Part shown: positions 11,575 to 62,419 of the stretch, piece by piece
Position numbering within the stretch: the stretch's first letter is position 1
How the letters are laid out: each line of letters begins with the position of its first letter
DNA from: Oscillospiraceae bacterium
Lineage (GTDB): Bacteria; Bacillota; Clostridia; Oscillospirales; Oscillospiraceae
Reading direction: 5' to 3'
Assembly: GCA_017938625.1 (NCBI GenBank)
Contig: JAGBBD010000040.1
Location: 28,350-92,349 of the forward strand
DNA: 64,000 nt
Notes under the pieces: generated by a model
Seen by the model: the letters and a program-made list of their open reading frames with translations, nothing else
Database searches by the model: none
What the model was told of the DNA's origin: nothing
Program-made: the position numbers and the translations under genes

Positions 11575-11818
11575 CTGTTTCGGGCATAGCCCGAATATTC
11601 CCGGCTGCGCACAGCACGTTAACGGGTTTTTGTTCTGCAATCCCTCCGCCTCATTTTACTCGGCACCTCCCTTTACACAAGGGAGGCTTTCAAACTTCTC
11701 TGCACCACAAGGCTCCCTTGTGTAAAGGATGCCCCAGGGCAGCTTCTTCTACGCGCTAAGAGCCGCGCTTCGCGCGGTTGCTCGCTTGCATGCGCCTGCG
11801 GGCGCGATCGCAATGACA
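11575..11818. repeat. Repeat cluster after the kinase gene
   Basis: Non-coding mosaic. It includes CTCCCTTTACACAAGGGAG-type hairpins in inverted orientation (11665-11730) and a GC-rich segment (11755-11816: GCTAAGAGCCGCGC ... GCGATCGCAATGACA). The same GC-rich segment recurs at 19318-19385 (reversed), 25818-25882 and 62616-62681. No gene is seen. Confidence 0.75.
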
Positions 11819-14029: not shown

Positions 14030-14206
14030 AATTCTGCTCCGCACCCTTGGCTCCCCTTGTCAGGGGAGCTGTCAAAATCTCTGATTTTGACTGAGGGGTA
14101 GTCGTCATTGTTCTCTCCCTCCGGTTTCGCTTCGCTCAACCACCTCCCTCGTCAGAGGGAGGCATGGCTGCGCAGCAAAATTTTAATCCGTCGCGAAGCG
14201 ACACCG
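14030..14206. repeat. Inverted REP pair (empty element) plus GTCGC hairpin
   Basis: A REP unit with hairpins CTCCCC-TTGT-CAGGGGAG and GTCAAAATC...GATTTTGAC and tail TGAGGGGTAGTCG (14049-14105) is followed by a second unit in reverse (14112-14166, ends GAGGGAGGCA). This matches the arrangement around the DUF559 gene at 16464-16946 without a gene inside. The reversed 'ATCCGTCGC' hairpin (14186-14204) is the 20-copy family found throughout the window. Confidence 0.8.
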
Positions 14207-14307: not shown

Positions 14308-16290
14308 ATGGCGAAACAACAATCTTACGGCAACGAGAGTATCTCGTCTTTGAAGGGTGCGGACAGAGTCCGCAAACGTCCCGCCGTTATTTTCGGCTCT
14401 GACGGTCTGGAAGGCTGTGAGCATGCCGTATTTGAAATTTTATCCAACTCCATCGACGAAGCCCGAGAGGGCCACGGCGATACCATCATTGTGACAAGAT
14501 ATCTGGATCACTCCATCGAGGTGGAGGATTTCGGCCGCGGCTGTCCCGTGGACTGGAACGCCGCCGAAGGCCGCTACAACTGGGAGCTGGTCTTCTGCGA
14601 GCTGTATGCCGGCGGCAAGTATGAAAACAACAACGGCGGCGACTATGAATTTTCTCTGGGTCTCAACGGCCTCGGTGCCTGCGCCACCCAGTATTCCTCC
14701 CGCAGCTTTGATGCCATCATCCGCCGCGACGGATTTAAGTATTCTCTGCACTTTGAGCGCGGTGAGATCGTGGGCGAGCTGGTGAAAGAGCCTGCCGACC
14801 GGAAAAAGACCGGCTCCTGCTTCCGCTGGCTGCCGGATCTGGAGGTCTTTACGGACATCAACATCCCCAGAGAATACTTTGTGGAGATCATGAAGCGTCA
14901 GGCTGTGGTCAACGCCGGCGTGACCTTCCGCTTCCGCAATGAGACTGCCCCCGGCAAGTTCGAGACGGAGGAATATCTCTACGAGCAGGGCATTCTGGAC
15001 TATGTGACGGAGCTGACCGACGGGGCAGCCATGACCATGCCCCAGTTCTGGCAGACGGAGCGCAAGGGCAGAGACCGGGAGGACAAGCCGGAATACAAGG
15101 TGAAGATCTCTGCGGCGGTGTGCTTCTCCAATCAGGTCAATGTGATCGAGTATTACCACAACTCCTCCTGGCTGGAGCACGGCGGTGCCCCGGAAAAGGC
15201 GGCAAAGAACGCCTTTGTCTACGCCATCGACAATTATCTCAAGGAGACGGGAAAATACACCAAGACCGAGAGCAAGATCACCTTCCAGGATGTGCAGGAC
15301 TGCCTTGTTCTGGTGACCAACTGCTTCTCCACCCAGACCTCCTATGAAAACCAGACCAAGAAGGCCATTACCAACAAGTTCGTGCAGGAGGCCATGACCC
15401 AGTTCTTCCGGGAGCGCCTGCAGGTATATTTCATTGAGAACAAGGCAGAAGCCGACAAGATCGCCGAGCAGGTGCTTATCAACAAGCGCAGCCGCGAAAC
15501 GGCGGAAAAAACAAGACTCAACATCAAGAAGAAAATTTCCGGCACGGTGGATCTTGCCAACCGTGTGCAGAAATTTGTGGACTGCCGCAGCCGGGATGCC
15601 TCCCAGCGGGAGATCTACATCGTGGAGGGCGACTCCGCATTGGGCAGCGTCAAGCTCTCCCGCGACGCGGAGTTCCAGGGCATCATGCCCATCCGAGGCA
15701 AGATCCTCAACTGTCTGAAGGCAGACTATGACCGCATTTTCAAATCCGAGATCATCACGGATCTGATCCGTGTGCTGGGCTGCGGCGTGGAAGTGCATAA
15801 TAAAAAGAGCAAGGATCTGTCTGCCTTCAGTCTGGAAAGCCTGCGGTGGAACAAGGTCATTATCTGTACAGACGCGGACGTGGACGGCTTCCAGATCAGA
15901 ACGCTGGTGCTGACCATGCTCTATCGTCTGACTCCCACCCTGATCGAGCAGGGCTATGTGTATATTGCAGAATCTCCTCTGTATGAGATCACCACCAAGG
16001 ACAAAACATGGTTTGCCTACTCAGACACAGAAAAGAACGACATCGTCAAAAAGTTAGAGGGGAAAAAGTACACCATCCAGCGCTCCAAGGGTCTTGGTGA
16101 GAACGAGCCGGAAATGATGTGGATGACCACCATGAACCCGGAAACCAGACGGCTCATCAAGGTCATGCCCGAGGACGCGGAAAAGACAGCCGCCGTCTTC
16201 GACCTGCTGCTGGGCGAAAACATTCTGGGCAGAAAAGACCACATTGCCGAAAACGGCTACAAGTATCTGGAACTGGCGGATATTTCGTAA
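14308..16290 (+). CDS. parE: Type IIA topoisomerase subunit B (ParE/GyrB-like, diverged)
   Basis: ATPase subunit of a type II topoisomerase, 660 residues. The GHKL fold shows the Bergerat residues ILSNSIDEA (about 44-52) and GLNGLGACATQY (about 115). The Toprim part has VEGDSA (about residue 440) and CTDADVDG (about residue 518), followed by RSKGLGENEPE. The Toprim loop reads EGDSALGSVKLSRD instead of the usual EGDSAGGSAKQGRD, so this is a diverged branch typical of a second topoisomerase in Clostridia. Whether it acts as topoisomerase IV in decatenation is inferred. It pairs with the subunit A gene at 17007, from which it is separated by a repeat element carrying a DUF559 gene. Confidence 0.9.
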   Translation: MAKQQSYGNESISSLKGADRVRKRPAVIFGSDGLEGCEHAVFEILSNSIDEAREGHGDTIIVTRYLDHSIEVEDFGRGCPVDWNAAEGRYNWELVFCELYAGGKYENNNGGDYEFSLGLNGLGACATQYSSRSFDAIIRRDGFKYSLHFERGEIVGELVKEPADRKKTGSCFRWLPDLEVFTDINIPREYFVEIMKRQAVVNAGVTFRFRNETAPGKFETEEYLYEQGILDYVTELTDGAAMTMPQFWQTERKGRDREDKPEYKVKISAAVCFSNQVNVIEYYHNSSWLEHGGAPEKAAKNAFVYAIDNYLKETGKYTKTESKITFQDVQDCLVLVTNCFSTQTSYENQTKKAITNKFVQEAMTQFFRERLQVYFIENKAEADKIAEQVLINKRSRETAEKTRLNIKKKISGTVDLANRVQKFVDCRSRDASQREIYIVEGDSALGSVKLSRDAEFQGIMPIRGKILNCLKADYDRIFKSEIITDLIRVLGCGVEVHNKKSKDLSAFSLESLRWNKVIICTDADVDGFQIRTLVLTMLYRLTPTLIEQGYVYIAESPLYEITTKDKTWFAYSDTEKNDIVKKLEGKKYTIQRSKGLGENEPEMMWMTTMNPETRRLIKVMPEDAEKTAAVFDLLLGENILGRKDHIAENGYKYLELADIS

Positions 16291-16304: not shown

Positions 16305-16430
16305 GAACGCACCCTTGCCTCCCGGCTTCCGAGGGAGGTGGTAACCAAAGGGAGAGAAAAATTACGACTACCCCTCAGTCATGGCTTCGCCATGACAGCT
16401 CCCCTGACAAGGGGAGCCATGATGCGGTGC
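16305..16430. repeat. Inverted REP pair (empty element)
   Basis: TGCCTCCCGGCTTCCGAGGGA... (16317-16357, ending GGGAGAGAA) and a reversed unit CCCCTCAGTCATGG...GGGGAGCCA (16371-16419) are separated by about 12 bp. Hairpins are CCTCCCggcttccGAGGGAGG, GTCATGGCttcGCCATGAC and GCTCCCCTgacAAGGGGAGC. It stands directly before the gene-bearing copy. Confidence 0.8.
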
Positions 16431-16463: not shown

Positions 16464-16946
16464 GCACCCTTGCCTCCCTCTGATGAGGGAGGTGGCAAAA
16501 CCGAAGGTTTTGACGGAGGGAGAGAATGAAAGCCTATCATAAAGAAAACATTCCCTTGGCAAAAGAATTGCGAAAAAATATGACGCCATGGGAACGAAAA
16601 CTGTGGTATGAGTTTTTGCGGCAGTATCCCATCCGTTTCCAGCGACAGAAATGCCTTGGTAACTATATCGTGGACTTCTATTGCGCAAGAGCTCGTCTTG
16701 TGGTGGAGCTGGATGGAAGCGGTCATTATACAAAACAGCAGCAGGAAATGGATGCGCAGCGTACACAAGAATTGGAATCTATGGACCTGACTGTTTTGCG
16801 GATCTGCAATTTGGATATTGACCGGAATTTTCGAGGTGTATGCGAATATATCGACCGGATGATCCAGATGCGATCTCTCCCTCAGTCATCATCCTTGCCT
16901 TAGCAAGGCTGATGACAGCTCCCTCATCAGAGGGAGCCATATGTGC
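16464..16946 (+). mobile_element. Gene-bearing REP pair: inverted hairpin repeats enclosing a DUF559 endonuclease
   Basis: Left unit 16464-16525 and right unit 16874-16946 are imperfect inverted repeats of 62-73 bp. Reading inward from each end both have GCAC, a TCCCTCTGATGAGGGAG hairpin, a second variable hairpin, a GAC(T)GAGG/GGAGGG motif and GAGGGAGAGA. The left unit ends one base before the ATG and provides its ribosome site; the stop codon sits in the right unit's inner hairpin loop (CCTTGC-CTTA-GCAAGG). Gene-free pairs of the same design occur at 14049-14166, 16317-16419 and 55190-55308. I infer a mobile unit with miniature relatives; no target-site duplication was identified. Confidence 0.55.
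16526..16903 (+). CDS. DUF559 / Vsr-like endonuclease-fold protein
   Basis: A 125-residue protein with the DUF559 pattern (MTPWERKLWYEFLR, RFQRQKCLGNYIVDFYC, LVVELDGSGHY). The family is related to very-short-patch-repair endonucleases and has a PD-(D/E)xK-like core: D50, E61, D63 and H67 are the likely metal and catalytic residues. The last ten codons (RSLPQSSSLP) are encoded by the right flanking repeat and are unlikely to be part of the fold. GGAGGG from the left repeat precedes the ATG. Composition is less GC-biased than the topoisomerase genes on both sides. A role in moving or spreading the flanking repeats is inference; DNA repair or selfish homing are alternatives. Confidence 0.85.
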   Translation: MKAYHKENIPLAKELRKNMTPWERKLWYEFLRQYPIRFQRQKCLGNYIVDFYCARARLVVELDGSGHYTKQQQEMDAQRTQELESMDLTVLRICNLDIDRNFRGVCEYIDRMIQMRSLPQSSSLP

Positions 16947-17006: not shown

Positions 17007-19241
17007 ATGGCGAAGAAGAAAACAGAACCTAAGATCAACAAGAATATCACCAATGTGGAAGGTCTTCGCGCGGAGGTTTTGGAGCAGAATATTACAGACA
17101 CCTTAGAGCTGAACTATATGCCCTATGCCATGTCTGTCATCGTCTCCCGTGCCATTCCGGAGATCGATGGCTTCAAGCCGTCCCACAGAAAGCTGCTGTA
17201 CACCATGTACGACATGGGGCTTCTGACCAAGCCGAGAACCAAGTCTGCCAACATCGTCGGTCAGACCATGCGCCTGAACCCCCACGGTGACGCCGCCATC
17301 TATGAGACCATGGTGCGTCTTGCCCGGGGGCACGAGGCCCTGAACCATCCTTTTGTGGACAGTAAGGGCAACTTCGGCAAGGTCTTCTCCCGCGATATGG
17401 CCTACGCCGCCTCCCGTTACACCGAGGCCAAGCTGGATCCCATCTGCCATGAGCTGTTCCGGGACATTGACTCCGACACGGTGGATTTTGTGGACAACTA
17501 CGACGGCTCCATGAAAGAGCCCACCCTGCTGCCCACCACATTCCCCAATGTGCTGGTATCCAACAACACCGGCATCGCCGTCGGTATGGCATCCAACATC
17601 TGCGGCTTCAACCTGCGTGAGGTGTGCCAGACCGCCATTGCCAGAATCAAGGACCCCTCCTGTGATCTTTTGGAGACTCTGCCGGCTCCCGATTTCCCCA
17701 CAGGCGGCGAGATCCTCTACGATCCTCTGCAGATGGCGGAGATCTACCGCACAGGCCGAGGCTCCTTCCCTGTCCGCGCCAAGTGGCGGTATGTGAAAGA
17801 GGGCAACCTGATCGAGATCTACGAGATCCCCTATACCACCACCACGGAAGCCATCCTCGACAAGGTGGCGGAGCTTATGAAGGCCGGCAAGATCCGCGAG
17901 ATCAATGATATGCGCGATGAGACCGACCTGTCGGGCCTAAAGCTGACCATTGATCTCAAGCGCGGTGTGGATCCCGACAAGCTCATGGCGCGGCTCATGA
18001 AAATGACCCCCCTTATGGATTCCTTCCCCTGCAACTTTAATATTCTCATTGCAGGCATGCCCAAGGTCATGGGCGTGGGCGAGATTCTGGAGGAGTGGAC
18101 GGCATGGCGCGCCGACTGCGTCCGCCGCAGAGTCTACTTCCAGCTGCAGAAAAAGAAGGACAGACTCCATCTGCTCAAGGGCCTTAGAAAAATTTTGCTG
18201 GATATCGACCTTGCCATCAAGATCATCCGCGAGACGGAGCTGGACGCAGAGGTCATCCCCAATCTGATGATCGGCTTTGGCATTGATCAGATTCAGGCAG
18301 AGTTCGTGGCGGAGATCAAGCTGCGCAACATCAACAAGGAATACATCCTCAAGCGTCTGCAGGATACGGATCTTTTGGCACAGGAGATCGACGAGCTGAC
18401 CGAGATCCTGGGCTCCGACCGGAAGATCAAGAATATCATCATCAAGGAACTCAAGGAAGTGGCTGACAGGTTCGGCAACGACCGCAAGACCACCCTGGTC
18501 TATGAAACGCAGGTCCAGCTGGAAGAGCCTCAGGAGGAAGTGCCCGATTATCCGTGCACCATCTTTGTGTCCAAGGGCGGCTACTTCAAGAAGATCACCC
18601 CCCAGAGCCTTCGTATGTCAAACGAGCAGAAATTCAAGGAGGGCGACAGCCTTGCCTTCTCCCGGGAGGTCTCCAACCGGGCGGAGCTGCTGGTATTTAC
18701 AGACAGGTGTCAGGTCTATAAGACACGCTGCGCCGACTTTGAAGACAGCAAGGCATCTGTCCTTGGCGACTTCCTGCCGGGCAAGCTGGCAATGGACGAG
18801 GGCGAGAACGTCCTTGCCGTGTGTCTGCCGGGCGAGTACAAGGGCTATGTGCTCTTTGTGTTTGAAAACGGCAAGGCCGCCAAGGTGGAGCTTGCCGCCT
18901 ATGCCACCAAGTCCAACCGCAGAAAGCTCACCGGCGCTTACAGCGACAAGTCCTCGGTGAAGGCCATCTTCTGCATGGAAGACGAGGTGCAGCTGGCTGT
19001 GTATTCCACAGACGGACGCTGCCTCATCTGCTCCACCGCCCAGCTGCAGGCAAAGACCACACGCAGCACCCAGGGCGTGGGCATCATGAGTCTGAAAAAG
19101 AACAAGACGGTGGACAAGGCGGTGCTGCTGGAGGAAAGCGGCATCCAGAACGTGTCCCGCTACCGTGTCAAGACCCTCCCCGCCGCCGGCGCCCTGCTGA
19201 AGGACGAAGACGTGGAAGAAAAGCAGATGGGATTGTTTTGA
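17007..19241 (+). CDS. parC: Type IIA topoisomerase subunit A (ParC/GyrA-like)
   Basis: DNA-cleaving subunit of a type II topoisomerase, 744 residues. The catalytic tyrosine is Y138 in DMAYAASRYTEAKL. The quinolone-resistance region reads MRLNPHGDAAIYE: alanine (A96) stands where GyrA has S83, and E100 replaces D87. The C-terminal third (from about residue 500) contains beta-pinwheel repeats such as FVSKGGYFKKI and TRSTQGVGIM. It partners with the ParE-like subunit upstream. The ribosome site is unusually far from the start (see 16968-17006). Confidence 0.92.
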   Translation: MAKKKTEPKINKNITNVEGLRAEVLEQNITDTLELNYMPYAMSVIVSRAIPEIDGFKPSHRKLLYTMYDMGLLTKPRTKSANIVGQTMRLNPHGDAAIYETMVRLARGHEALNHPFVDSKGNFGKVFSRDMAYAASRYTEAKLDPICHELFRDIDSDTVDFVDNYDGSMKEPTLLPTTFPNVLVSNNTGIAVGMASNICGFNLREVCQTAIARIKDPSCDLLETLPAPDFPTGGEILYDPLQMAEIYRTGRGSFPVRAKWRYVKEGNLIEIYEIPYTTTTEAILDKVAELMKAGKIREINDMRDETDLSGLKLTIDLKRGVDPDKLMARLMKMTPLMDSFPCNFNILIAGMPKVMGVGEILEEWTAWRADCVRRRVYFQLQKKKDRLHLLKGLRKILLDIDLAIKIIRETELDAEVIPNLMIGFGIDQIQAEFVAEIKLRNINKEYILKRLQDTDLLAQEIDELTEILGSDRKIKNIIIKELKEVADRFGNDRKTTLVYETQVQLEEPQEEVPDYPCTIFVSKGGYFKKITPQSLRMSNEQKFKEGDSLAFSREVSNRAELLVFTDRCQVYKTRCADFEDSKASVLGDFLPGKLAMDEGENVLAVCLPGEYKGYVLFVFENGKAAKVELAAYATKSNRRKLTGAYSDKSSVKAIFCMEDEVQLAVYSTDGRCLICSTAQLQAKTTRSTQGVGIMSLKKNKTVDKAVLLEESGIQNVSRYRVKTLPAAGALLKDEDVEEKQMGLF

Positions 19242-43864: not shown

Positions 43865-44072
43865 TCTAATTGACAATGGACAATTGACAATTGACAATGA
43901 ATGTGTCGGCAAAGCCGACGGATTTTAAATTTGCTTCGCACCCAAAGGCTCCCTTGTGTAAAGGGAGCTGTCAGCGAAGCTGACTGAGGGATTGTGTGCA
44001 GGCAGTGACGTTACTTTCTGCACCCGGGACGTCGAGGGCGCCATCCCCTACACGCACCCAATTCAGCATTGC
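43865..44072. repeat. Repeat cluster inside the acetyltransferase-DUF6320 operon
   Basis: TTGACAATGGACAATTGACAATTG tandem, TGTCGGCAAAGCCGACGG hairpin (43903-43922), and a REP unit GGCTCCCTTGTGTAAAGGGAGC...GTCAGCGAAGCTGACTGAGGG (43949-43992). No gene. Confidence 0.8.
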
Positions 44073-55119: not shown

Positions 55120-55350
55120 TTTAATTGACAATTGACAATGAATGTGTCGGCTCTGCCGACGGATTTGAAATTTGCTGCGCACCAAAGGCTCCCCTTGTCA
55201 GGGGAGCTGTCAAAATCTTTGATTTTGACTGAGGGGTAGTCGTGATCGTTCTCTCCCTCCGGTTTCGCTTCGCTCAACCACCTCCCTCAGAAGCCGGGAG
55301 GCATGGGTGCATCCGTAGCCGACGGCGCCCTTGACGTCCCGCGTGCAGGC
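55120..55350. repeat. Inverted REP pair (empty element) and hairpin before rsmF
   Basis: TTGACAATTGACAATG, TGTCGGCTCTGCCGACGG hairpin (55147-55164), then a forward REP unit (GGCTCCCCTTGTCAGGGGAG, GTCAAAATC...GATTTTGAC, TGAGGGGTAGTCG; 55190-55243) and a reversed unit (TTCTCTCCCTCCGG ... CCGGGAGGCA; 55250-55304). It matches the empty element at 14049-14166 almost base for base over its first half. Confidence 0.8.
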
Positions 55351-58920: not shown

Positions 58921-60477
58921 ATGATGCCGATCATGTACGCAATCGCCGCCATCGCCGGCGCATTTGTGGTAAGTGGTATTATTTTCTTCCTGATCGGTAT
59001 GGCATACCGCAAGAAGGTCTCTGAAAAAGAGATCGGCTCCGCGGAAGAGGAAGCCAAGCGCATCCTCAATGAGGCCATCAAGAGCGCGGAAAGCAAAAAG
59101 CGTGAAATGCTGCTGGAAGCCAAGGAAGAGATTCATAAATCGCGTGCCGAAAACGAGAAAGAACTGAAGGAACGCCGCAGCGACCTGCAGAAGCAGGAGC
59201 GCCGTTTCCAGCAGAGAGAAGAAGCCTTTGACAAAAAGGTGGATGCTCACGAGAAGAAAGAAGAAGAACTGGCAAAGAAACTGGCAAATGTGGCTGCCGC
59301 ACAGGAAGAAGTCAACACCATCAAGCGCAGCCAGCTTGAAATGCTGGAGAAGATCTCCGGTCTGAGCAAGGAAGATGCCAAGAGCCAGCTGCTGCAGAGC
59401 GTGGAGACGGAAGTGCGCCACGAAACTGCCATGAAGATCAAAGAGATCGAAAGCCAGATGAAGGAGCAGTCCGATCAGCTGGCAAGAGAGATCATCTCCA
59501 CCGCCATCCAGCGCTGTGCCGCAGACCATGCGGCGGAAGCCACCGTTTCCGTGGTACCCCTGCCGAATGACGAGATGAAGGGCCGCATCATCGGTCGTGA
59601 AGGTCGCAACATTCGCACCCTGGAAACCATCACCGGTGTGGATCTGATCATCGACGATACCCCCGAAGCCATCACCGTTTCCAGCTTTGATCCTGTCCGC
59701 CGTGAGGTGGCAAGACTGGCGCTGGAGAAGCTCATTGCCGACGGCCGTATCCATCCCACCCGTATCGAGGACATGGTGGAAAAGGCTCGCCGCGAAGTGG
59801 ATCATACCATCAAGATGGAGGGCGAACGTGCCACCTTCGAGACCGGTATCCACGGTCTGCATCCCGAGCTGGTCAAGCTCCTGGGCAGACAGAAGTACCG
59901 TACCTCTTACGGTCAGAACGTGCTCAACCACTCCATGGAAGTTGCCCATATCGCAGGTCTTCTCGCCAGCGAGCTTGGTGTGGACGTGACCTTGGCAAAG
60001 CGCGCAGGTCTGCTCCACGACCTTGGTAAGTCCGTGGACCACGAAATGGAAGGCAGCCACGTCCAGCTGGGCGTGGAGCTGGCACGGAAGTATAAGGAGT
60101 CCCCTGCCGTTATCCATGCCATCGAAGCCCACCATGGCGATGTGGAAGCCCAGACTGTCATCGCCTGCCTGGTTCAGGCTGCCGATGCCATCTCCGCCGC
60201 CCGTCCCGGCGCCCGCCGTGAAAATGTGGAAAGCTATATCCGCCGTCTGGAGAAGCTGGAAGAGCTCACCGGCACCTATCCCGGTGTTGAAAAGTCCTTC
60301 GCCATTCAGGCAGGCAGAGAAGTCCGTATCATGGTCAAGCCCGAGGAGGTCACGGAAGACAACATGGTATTGCTTGCAAGAGAGCTTGCCAAGAAGATCG
60401 AAGCCGAGCTGGAATACCCCGGTCAGATCAAGGTCAATGTCATCCGCGAGACCAAAGCTGTGGAATACGCAAAATAA
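58921..60477 (+). CDS. rny: Ribonuclease Y
   Basis: Membrane-anchored endoribonuclease that starts mRNA decay in Firmicutes. 518 residues: N-terminal membrane helix (about 4-24), a long coiled coil (about 35-190), KH domain with [28 protein letters not shown] (about 223-250), and HD domain with [10 protein letters not shown] (about 363). AAGGAGG lies 14 bases before the ATG, farther than normal; a stop (TAG, 58915-58917) just upstream in frame rules out a longer protein. Confidence 0.97.
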
Positions 60478-60484
60478 AAGACAC

Positions 60485-60512
60485 AAAAGCCCTGTCGTTC
60501 CCGACAGGGCTT
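60485..60512 (+). terminator. RNase Y terminator, split by cassette 2
   Basis: AAAAGCCCTGTCG-TTC-CCGACAGGGCTT keeps its stem but its T-tract is cut after two T's. TTCCCGACAGGGCTT (60498-60512) is repeated at 62420-62434, where the missing T run follows. Confidence 0.85.
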
Positions 60513-62419
60513 CATAAAACAGTTACTCCTCCCTATGAGAAATCTCAGAGGGAGGAGTATTTTGCATTAGTGCGGTTCAAAAGCGCATATAACGCACTAC
60601 ACCGAAAGGTGTATAGAAGTGCGCCCTTATATTTATTCGACATATTGGAATTTACTTAAATGTTTTCTTATTGTAAAACAACGCCAGTTTTGTCTCCAAG
60701 TTCTTCATGTACAAAAGTTTCCATTTCACTGTGTTTTTTTGTCATGAACATACTGAAATTTCCATTGTCGAAACACCAATATGCAAATGGTTTATTCTGG
60801 TTTTGCATATAAGTATTTCCGCTGTATACAGGATAGTATTCCTGCGGCATACCGCTGATAATGAGAGCACCATCTGAGCAGTACAAAACATTGTCTTTAA
60901 TCACAAGATTTTCGTTGGCGCACGGCAGAGGCATATCACTGCCCGAGAAAACCAGAGCACCGATAATGCCACTTGCCTTTTTTCTTTGAGGGTCTCCTGC
61001 GGTGGTGGAATACATCACATAGTTGTCCTCAATCAGAATGTCCTTAAATCTGTGCAGTTTGTTGACCTCTTCTTCCCAGTTGATCAGAGTAATACCTGCG
61101 GTGTACTCTAGCAAGTTGCCGCGAATTGTATTATTGCCCTGAGTTTCCTCAACATCTGCAAGTTCTCCATTAGCTGCAAAAGCCATCTCGCCTGCTGCAA
61201 TCCCACCATTGAATACATGATGCACGTAGTTGTTCTCTACAAGCATATTGAGAGTATGGCTGATGCCGTCGCCGGAATAGATTGTTTCTGCGTCATAGAA
61301 GGTATGTGTCATTGCACCCATATATCCAACTTCGCAGTTCTGTACAAGTCTGCCCCCGTTAGCTTCAATTGCATGACCGCCATACATCACCGATATATTA
61401 TCAAGCACGGACATATATCCAAAGTTCAGTGTCACCACACTGCCGTTGTACGGGTCACAGCAAAATTCAATGGATTGATATACTTCACCCGGATTACCTT
61501 CATCACATCGCAGGTAGAGTTTTCCTCCTCTGTCAGCATATTCATAAACATATATCGGATGCTGTGAATTGAGGTCAGAATAATCAATATCATTAAAATA
61601 CTGAAGGTCACCCATATCTTTTGCAGGGTCAAAAGTCGGTTTTTGCATCAGGGTGCTGTAATCATCGACACCCACAACAAACTTTACATATCTGTCCCCT
61701 GTCCACCATACAGGTGCTTTGTCTGCAAGGTCCATACTGCCATCCAGAACGATATCACCGCAGTCCATAATATCCTTATAGAAAACCCAGATATTATCTG
61801 TGCCGTCCATCAGTCTCCATTTTAAAGGGTCTGCACCGTTTTCCGGAGAACCGTAAATACCGGGTTTAGCGCCCTCACCATAGGCAGAGTATGTAACACC
61901 ATTCTGTGCAATGAGGGCTTCTCCGCGCCAGATGTCTCCGCGGCGGAAGAACACACCGTCACCGGGGTTCAGAGGCGTACCGTTCACCTTATCCAGTGAT
62001 GCCCAGGGGGTATCCTCACTTCTGCCATCGTTACTGTCATCACCATCTGCAGATACATAATAGCAGTCACCGGTAACAGCAATTTCTGTTGGGCTGTTCA
62101 GAATTGATTCCCGTCGGGCATCTGCGTTTGCCAACAGTTCCTGTTCTGCCGCAGATATCGGGCATTCCGAACTGCTGCATCCGCAGAGCAATCCCAGTAT
62201 CAGAATAAGTGGCAAAAATATATATTTTTTCATACACCAACCTCTTTTCTTTACATCAGTTAACGCCTTTTATTATTAAATATTGTTTTATCCATCTGTT
62301 CGACAAATTCAAATATTTCTAATTGTTTTGCCCATTTTATCACATCATTGTGAGCTATACAAGAACAGTCCCGGCAGGTAATCCTACCGGGACTGAAACT
62401 GTTTTATGGCCACTCGCCA
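60513..62419. mobile_element. AT-rich single-gene cassette 2 inserted in the RNase Y terminator
   Basis: A perfect 12-bp inverted repeat CATAAAACAGTT (60513-60524) / AACTGTTTTATG (62397-62408) bounds the insert, and a 15-bp direct repeat TTCCCGACAGGGCTT (60498-60512, 62420-62434) flanks it. The right side has 11 extra bases between the two repeats. Composition is AT-rich. One lipoprotein gene, with hairpins near each end (ACTCCTCCCT...AGGGAGGAGT, 60525-60558; AGTCCCGG...CCGGGACT, 62367-62394). No transposase. Same logic as cassette 1. Confidence 0.65.
60668..62233 (-). CDS. Lipoprotein with right-handed beta-helix domain (cassette 2 cargo)
   Basis: A 521-residue lipoprotein: signal and lipobox LILGLLCGC (C19), then YYVSADGDDSNDGRSEDTPWASLDKVN (about 58-84), the typical entry of parallel beta-helix proteins. 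Helix coils follow (NCEVGYMGAMTHTF, NNTIRGNLLEYTAGITLI, DILIEDNYVMYST). Several Asp and His lie in the coils but no lyase or hydrolase site can be assigned. Paralogue of 22390-24024 with shared N-terminal, central and C-terminal landmarks, roughly similar length, same AT-rich codon use and the same orientation, convergent with the host gene. Confidence 0.8.
   Translation of the reverse strand: MKKYIFLPLILILGLLCGCSSSECPISAAEQELLANADARRESILNSPTEIAVTGDCYYVSADGDDSNDGRSEDTPWASLDKVNGTPLNPGDGVFFRRGDIWRGEALIAQNGVTYSAYGEGAKPGIYGSPENGADPLKWRLMDGTDNIWVFYKDIMDCGDIVLDGSMDLADKAPVWWTGDRYVKFVVGVDDYSTLMQKPTFDPAKDMGDLQYFNDIDYSDLNSQHPIYVYEYADRGGKLYLRCDEGNPGEVYQSIEFCCDPYNGSVVTLNFGYMSVLDNISVMYGGHAIEANGGRLVQNCEVGYMGAMTHTFYDAETIYSGDGISHTLNMLVENNYVHHVFNGGIAAGEMAFAANGELADVEETQGNNTIRGNLLEYTAGITLINWEEEVNKLHRFKDILIEDNYVMYSTTAGDPQRKKASGIIGALVFSGSDMPLPCANENLVIKDNVLYCSDGALIISGMPQEYYPVYSGNTYMQNQNKPFAYWCFDNGNFSMFMTKKHSEMETFVHEELGDKTGVVLQ

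Follow-up and report, generated by a model that had tools for sequence, protein, structure and literature searches.

A gene for a DUF559 (Vsr-like) endonuclease in an Oscillospiraceae bacterium is built into a pair of inverted double-hairpin repeats, forming a compact unit that recurs at many sites in related genomes. This unit, of about 450 bp and consisting of a type B end, the endonuclease gene and an inverted type A end, is probably a selfish element resembling the REP/RAYT systems. Its mobile, selfish nature is well supported, and we infer that the DUF559 protein most likely catalyzes its movement. The window in which the unit was found is a stretch of 64,000 nucleotides (contig C31) from a 2.25 Mb draft genome (G000) that is 71% complete.

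Architecture of the DUF559 unit

The left end of the unit (type B, 16464..16525, plus strand) is a 62-nt stretch with two hairpins, comprising the outer hairpin CCTCCCTCTGATGAGGGAGG, the inner hairpin and then GACGGAGGGAGAGA; it carries the Shine-Dalgarno sequence GGAGGG and terminates directly before the ATG of the DUF559 gene (16526..16903, plus strand; 125 amino acids; PF04480, E-value 3.8e-29). The right end (type A, inverted, 16874..16946, minus strand) is a 73-nt stretch covering the last nine codons and the stop of the gene and then its outer hairpin. The type B end reads GGGAGGTGGC..GACGGAGGG and the type A end, read inwards, GGGAGCTGTCA..TGACTGAGGG. The outer inverted arms (16464-16497 and 16913-16946) match over 34 nt at 82% and the inner arms (16511-16525 and 16874-16888) over 15 nt at 93%, in the same order from outside to inside at both ends. 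These data bear out a preliminary description of this sequence, which had placed the gene within an inverted REP-like pair with its hairpins in the same order and had seen the left repeat supply the ribosome site directly before the ATG. It was also right that the right repeat encodes the C-terminus and stop, with nine codons in place of the ten it had counted; the TAG, which it had placed in a hairpin loop, begins in the right inner hairpin's loop but has its G in the stem.

Folding with single-stranded DNA energies gave values of -17.6 for the left end (z -5.5) and -23.7 for the right end (z -6.4), and none of 200 shuffled sequences was as good in either case. The two ends are similar, not identical, and the inner hairpin differs between them; DUF559 units bear terminal inverted repeats of the kind found on classical insertion sequences, again similar and not identical. 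The unit is flanked by genes that we term parE (14308..16290, plus strand) and parC (17007..19241, plus strand), names given on recognition of the sequence and similarity, to gyrB-like genes in the case of parE, rather than on a family search. There are four DUF559 genes in the genome of the window, three of which (L001, L002 and L004) share this arrangement, while the fourth (L003) has only a different repeat, on its right.

The anatomy is held constant among the units collected from related genomes. Their edges are sharp (GCCTCCC..GGGAGCC), and the length between hairpin edges is 436-463 bp in 44 of 46 distinct units, the exceptions being 416 and 560 bp. At many loci, in both main clades, the gene begins at a fixed place relative to the left end and its C-terminus runs into the right end. 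Where an end carries one of the two main loop types, it lies to the left of the gene in 56 of 59 cases for type B and to its right in 62 of 66 for type A. The inner hairpins are diverse, with 32 sequences among the 59 B ends (mean stem 6.2, against 2.9 when shuffled) and 24 among the 66 A ends (5.2 against 2.4), counts that include loci met twice; the shape of the hairpin is retained while its sequence changes.

The nuclease and its conservation

The window protein matches Pfam DUF559 (PF04480) with 101.2 bits against a curated cut-off of 20.6; Pfam also returned a sub-threshold match to MTES_1575 and none to Y1_Tnp. Aligning the window protein with 29 relatives gave a 30-row profile that matches PDB entry 3hrl, 'Endonuclease-Like Protein', with an E-value of 2e-19, and weakly (E 0.015) entry 3r3p, 'Mobile intron protein', which we take to be the catalytic domain of the EDxHD homing endonuclease I-Bth0305I. 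Residues E23, D50, E61 and D63 are among those invariant in the 30-row alignment. Median dN/dS was 0.047 for 85 pairs and 0.078 for 62 pairs and never reached 1, as calculated without the last 12 codons and without pairs whose synonymous change was saturated or very low; the protein is under strong purifying selection.

Facing hairpins and flank similarity in the family

Enclosure was examined in 120 genomes of the family with the two exact outer hairpins as probes. Among the 199 of 203 sites that were listed, every facing exact pair of one loop type with a separation of 423-445 bp had a DUF559 gene inside (10/10), the 14 facing exact pairs 94-140 bp apart were empty, and no other gene was enclosed by a facing pair of one loop type up to 3000 bp; pairs of mixed loop type, such as L207, were left out of the count. 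At these listed sites the flanks therefore do not occur equally often around unrelated genes.

Flank similarity gave a second measure: the upstream flank was scored for local similarity to the reverse-complemented downstream flank, with 250 nt on each side (220 and 265 nt in the named set). Scores of at least 26 were reached by 41, and of at least 30 by 39, of the 62 scorable DUF559 loci of the genus and family, and 21 of the 62 fell below 26; four of the 66 loci had too short a flank to be scored. Among control genes of the window the corresponding figures were 5/46 and 3/46, the best-scoring control being parE, which lies between an empty pair and the next repeats. Named relatives (the best 80) reached 26 at 62 and 30 at 58 of 76 scorable loci, whereas random placements within the named loci did so at 1/147 and 0/147. 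Five loci were met twice across these sets, since some named loci and loci of the family genomes are identical. The inverted score exceeded the direct one at 28 of the 41 family loci and 45 of the 62 named loci that reached 26; because the hairpins are nearly palindromic, the score tests orientation only in part, and orientation is better shown by the polarity of the type A and B ends together with the enclosure count.

Loop type follows the nuclease clade

Loop types were mapped on a FastTree phylogeny of 176 DUF559 domains. Units with TTGTGTAA (TTGT) at both ends (22 loci) fall in a clade of 26 tips that is free of TCTGAYGA, and those with TCTGAYGA at both ends (28 rows, 25 distinct loci) occupy another part of the tree, so that loop type changes once on the tree, whereas 500 shuffles gave a mean of 16.6 changes and a minimum of 11. 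Any agreement between repeat and protein phylogeny is judged from these two loop types, which map to separate parts of the protein tree. Genomes G000, G002 and G008 hold both types, each unit with its own; one locus (L125) is mixed, with TTGTGTAA in its left outer loop and the TCTGA type elsewhere. Since a gene and its ends are physically linked, the match between clade and loop could reflect co-descent instead of recognition.

Further copies of each hairpin are also associated with the matching nuclease. At least four further TTGT hairpins were present in 5/7 genomes with a TTGT-clade gene and 4/113 without (p 1e-5), and at least four further TCTGA hairpins in 3/6 genomes with the matching clade and 1/114 without (p 3e-4). 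The TCTGAYGA hairpin occurs in 24 of 101 Bifidobacterium genomes, namely 12/17 with a strong DUF559 match and 12/84 without (p 7e-6); with a threshold of five copies the figures are 6/17 and 7/84 (p 0.008). As the genomes are related and many are drafts (71-88% complete in the genus), these absences and p values are guides. B. felsineum has 34 exact copies, against 0 for the reversed-pattern control. Counting against the reading that the nuclease spreads the repeats, some genomes have many hairpins and no DUF559: five Bifidobacterium genomes (G398, G417, G444, G449 and G459) contain 11 to 29 copies but lack both a strong DUF559 match and a Y1 transposase, and G006 has 12 TTGT copies and no DUF559 hit.

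Genomic sites and variation between congeners

The eight draft genomes of the genus (71-88% complete) hold 4, 1, 10, 0, 2, 1, 0 and 1 DUF559 genes, the single hits in G001 and G007 being a distant protein and a fragment. In the family the gene is patchy, present in 37 of 120 genomes, and decayed copies occur (for example L015, L027, L058 and L066). At the parE-parC site DUF559 is absent from all five assessable congeners, which are different species rather than strains; in G002 a contig end interrupts the site, and from G007 no upstream part was obtained. Two of the five DUF559-free sites hold, by eye, an empty pair (L069 and L071). The presence/absence polymorphism anticipated for the unit is thus seen between species.

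Units adjoin many unrelated genes and their left flanks mostly differ, although some units share a host element. Many TTGT units (L150-L169) have different left flanks and a similar right flank, made up of a hairpin and a terminator, which hints at a preferred target. No consistent target duplication was apparent by eye among the 46 distinct units, and no excision product was seen. One unit (L057, the same as L133) is bracketed by an imperfect direct repeat of about 20 bp, possibly a target duplication.

The host element is a conserved non-coding sequence, with a AAGGGCGCACTTCTATACACC hairpin followed by a terminator containing AACTGTTTTACG, of which the window holds a copy without a unit at 60470..60640 (minus strand; end points approximate, by eye; further copies L080-L091). 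Its pattern matches one to three places per genome in seven of ten genomes. Copies contain a TCTGA unit in G002, TTGT units in G005, G059 and G108, a gene-less unit in G004 (L082) and nothing in G000, and in G008 (L201) an empty pair stands before what is apparently the same tail. Unit-bearing copies lie mostly beside different genes, with shared neighbours in the pairs L064/L084 and L080/L105. A larger composite element around this sequence, which we also considered, would have to accommodate these mostly different neighbours. The Rfam search found no match of the element's own: it returned only a tRNA in the window, and the hits above threshold for ten element loci were a tmRNA and a TPP riboswitch, which correspond to neither the repeat nor the host element.

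Eight of the 58 DUF559 genes of the family lie about 0.5 kb or less from genes similar to gyrA, gyrB, parE or parC, as located by tblastn with two window proteins (L002, L003, L005, L022, L033, L045, L046 and L051); the number seems above what would be expected from the few such gaps in each genome.

Empty pairs and unpaired hairpins

Gene-free inverted pairs occur at three places in the window, as the preliminary description had stated. One, of order B...A, lies between parE and the unit (16317..16419, plus strand; outer hairpins at 16319(+) and 16396(-)); two, of order A...B, lie upstream of parE (14049..14166; outer hairpins at 14051(+) and 14141(-)) and at 55189..55308 (outer hairpins at 55189(+) and 55279(-)). 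They are less uniform than that description implied, their loops being partly other than those of the gene's unit. Folding of two of their ends gave a stable structure at 14049-14098 (z -6.5) but not at 16317-16363 (z -0.5). Two TTGTGTAA-type hairpins, one of type B at 11664..11685 (minus strand) and one of type A at 43949..43970 (plus strand), have no facing partner of the searched pattern.

The empty pairs had been taken for miniature derivatives of the unit, a claim that is not supported for those inspected. By eye, the spacers of the window's three pairs and of others are not gene remnants, which gives no support to a deletion origin for them; the one clear deletion derivative is L082 in G004, a unit minus its gene. 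The pairs appear better termed non-autonomous relatives. Bacterial MITEs and intergenic palindromic elements, such as the rhizobial mosaic elements, are likewise short, gene-free, inverted and dispersed; unlike these, the present pairs have a counterpart that carries a dedicated gene between ends of the same kind. In G008 a family of gene-free pairs (L192-L200) has a fairly uniform length, with hairpins 110-132 bp apart, and several members have similar AT-rich spacers and look recently spread.

Relationship to RAYT and other nuclease systems

According to a published study of RAYT genes (PMC2817692), such a gene is flanked by two inverted hairpin repeats, the repeats also form gene-free copies and doublets, the sites are intergenic and the repeat type follows the protein clade. 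The DUF559 system shares these features: its gene has an inverted hairpin repeat on either side, of a kind scattered through the genome, gene-free copies and doublets are many, sites are intergenic and repeat type tracks protein clade. It is unlike REP/RAYT in its enzyme, which is a DUF559 protein of the PD-(D/E)XK, Vsr-like kind with no Y1 HUH transposase; in the ends of the unit, which lack a GT(A/G)G head (GCCTCCC..GGGAGCC); and in having two hairpins per end, with the left end used as ribosome site and the right as C-terminal codons. We do not count the unit as a member of REP/RAYT, since a search for a Y1 enzyme and for a GT(A/G)G head found neither.

The two systems are also separate in the genomes. 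Of 24 Y1_Tnp loci fetched, many of which were weak matches, 20 could be scored, and none of the 20 had these hairpins within 400 nt. GTAGGGG repeats accompany 10 of 17 Oscillospiraceae Y1_Tnp loci against 3 of 58 DUF559 loci, 33 of which carry the hairpins. At least one Y1_Tnp match was found in 14 of 17 Oscillospiraceae genomes tested, that of the window included; there was no hit in 11 of the 12 hairpin-bearing Bifidobacterium genomes tested (of 24 found), nor in G091 and G108, both of which have DUF559 units. RAYT is therefore a system separate from the DUF559 hairpin units, and the self-contained unit proposed in the preliminary description, with DUF559 in REP-like ends, at many sites, variable between congeners and distinct from RAYT/REP, is upheld. 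In the gap between gyrB and gyrA, G006 has a RAYT-like gene with GTAG repeats (L077) and G002 has a DUF559 unit (L079/L005).

A 2014 review gives EDxHD as a homing family with I-Bth0305I as its named enzyme (PMC3943268). The DUF559 unit resembles these Vsr-like homing endonucleases in its nuclease domain, by the weak profile match, and in its mobile context; it differs in lying outside any intron or intein, in hairpin repeats at many sites, and in encoding a small protein of about 125 amino acids, almost all of which is taken up by the domain. Vsr and the Caulobacter protein VsrA belong to the same nuclease superfamily as the window protein, and VsrA has a DUF559 domain and is proposed as a mismatch-repair endonuclease (PMC12907096); Vsr and VsrA differ from the window protein in being proposed repair enzymes, the Caulobacter case being compared by description. 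No link between DUF559 and repeats was found in the titles and abstract openings of the open-licence PMC papers listed, consistent with the earlier statement that no described REP system using DUF559 is known.

Proposed mechanism of spread and alternative explanations

In the reading that we favour, the nuclease would recognize the double-hairpin ends, probably in the form of cruciforms or folded single strands, and would cut or nick there; the unit would then be copied into new, mostly intergenic sites, and gene-free pairs of ends, REPIN- or MITE-like, would be moved by the nuclease in trans. The suggestion that an endonuclease spreads the repeats is partly supported: the clade link and enclosure speak for it, while the spreading itself is deduced, with neither consistent target duplications nor an excision product seen among the loci.

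The main rival holds that the pairs are MITEs moved by other means and that a free-standing DUF559 homing endonuclease cuts empty pairs, into which repair then copies its gene; we judge this unlikely. The weak similarity to 3r3p, the I-Bth0305I domain, fits such a history, and the non-coding element with its DUF559 units, its unoccupied copy in G000 and the empty pair by its apparent tail in G008 (L201) is suggestive of it. A homing gene should be confined mostly to a single site or allele, however, and the units stand beside many unrelated genes, with left flanks that differ even where the right ones agree. The fixing of the gene start to the left end and the overlap of the C-terminus with the right end at many loci also argue against insertion into ready-made pairs, and no other mover of the pairs was identified. 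Such a mover might be another transposase, for instance RAYT, shifting pairs and units in trans with DUF559 as a passenger. The Y1_Tnp matches in 14 of 17 Oscillospiraceae genomes and the RAYT-like gene of G006 in a gap where G002 has DUF559 would suit this, but we regard it as very improbable: Y1_Tnp genes sit with other repeats, the hairpins were found at none of their 20 scorable loci, Y1_Tnp went unseen in nearly all hairpin-bearing Bifidobacterium genomes tested and in G091 and G108, and a passenger should not be the sole gene enclosed among the listed sites.

It is also improbable that the nuclease is carried for its benefit to the host, as a Vsr-type enzyme that repairs mismatches or hairpins and either tolerates the repeats or keeps them in check. 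The strong purifying selection, the E. coli and Neisseria DUF559 genes without such flanks and the repair role proposed for VsrA (PMC12907096) are what one would expect of a useful gene; the patchy presence in 37 of 120 genomes, the range from 0 to 10 copies between congeners and the decayed copies fit a selfish element better. Least probable by far is a coincidence or insertion hot spot, in which intergenic gaps gather repeats and small genes independently. Eight of 58 family genes do lie beside gyrase- or topoisomerase IV-like genes, and GTAG repeats with a RAYT-like gene occur in such gaps too, yet the fixed anatomy speaks strongly against coincidence: ten of ten exact enclosures among the listed sites, narrow spacing, constant polarity and an overlap with the reading frame, with 0/147 random placements reaching a score of 30.

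We know of no mover for many bacterial palindromic repeats. If DUF559 is the mover here, it would be a second, enzymatically unrelated solution to the problem solved by REP/RAYT, would give a widespread family of unknown function a likely role, and would do so in a tiny unit of about 450 bp, the activity of which could be approached with one protein and one oligonucleotide.

DUF559 units beyond the Oscillospiraceae

The link between DUF559 and the hairpins holds and is wider than had been claimed. In Bifidobacterium flanks of 300 nt were scored, and each genome contributed a single strong DUF559 locus (17 of 29 strong places); 15 of these 17 loci scored 51 to 211, and 13 weak matches scored 14 to 27. 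A phylum sample of 28 mostly distant loci gave 14 to 21 in 27 cases, the sole exception being its one close relative (L212). Among plasmid and phage records, of which 23 of 32 were used and nine left out because they came from organisms or genera already sampled, 14 of 23 loci scored 30 or more; these came from Deinococcus, Pseudanabaena, Sphingomonas, Novosphingobium, Sinorhizobium meliloti, Qipengyuania, Sphingobium and two phage contigs, one of which (L353) is not hairpin-repeat-like. No pair (scores 15 to 29) was found at the loci from E. coli, Neisseria, Azospirillum, Photobacterium, Shinella and one Sinorhizobium, and three cyanobacterial loci of this set also lie in that range. Viral contigs, of which 14 of 19 were tested, reached 30 at 10 of 13 scorable loci, at least two being near duplicates; four loci from a further viral-contig scan with L290 as query were left out of the counts. 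Some DUF559 genes lie on plasmid or phage records, with no clear vehicle found among them.

Inverted hairpin pairs flank DUF559 also in Actinomycetota, Pseudomonadota, Deinococcota and Cyanobacteriota. We hold it evenly balanced whether DUF559 defines a class of selfish elements with hairpin ends that extends throughout the bacteria, a Vsr-fold nuclease acting alone to spread its own gene and many orphan palindromic repeats across these four phyla and Bacillota, independently of RAYT and of all DDE/HUH transposases.

The S. meliloti DUF559 locus with its flanks (L344, CP090106) has 441 matching places in 139 records of the plasmid collection, the weaker matches listed being short repeat pieces. 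A strain-level empty site was sought there: the best four records also cover the gene, and the other records listed match only short pieces or one end. At four loci DUF559 lies inside a conserved operon, between two transhydrogenase genes (L345), between sufB and sufC (L351), between a YqeY-domain gene and dnaG (L334) and between paaD and paaZ (L350), and in Pseudanabaena galeata (L346) the DUF559 match and its inverted repeats lie within one long annotated coding sequence.
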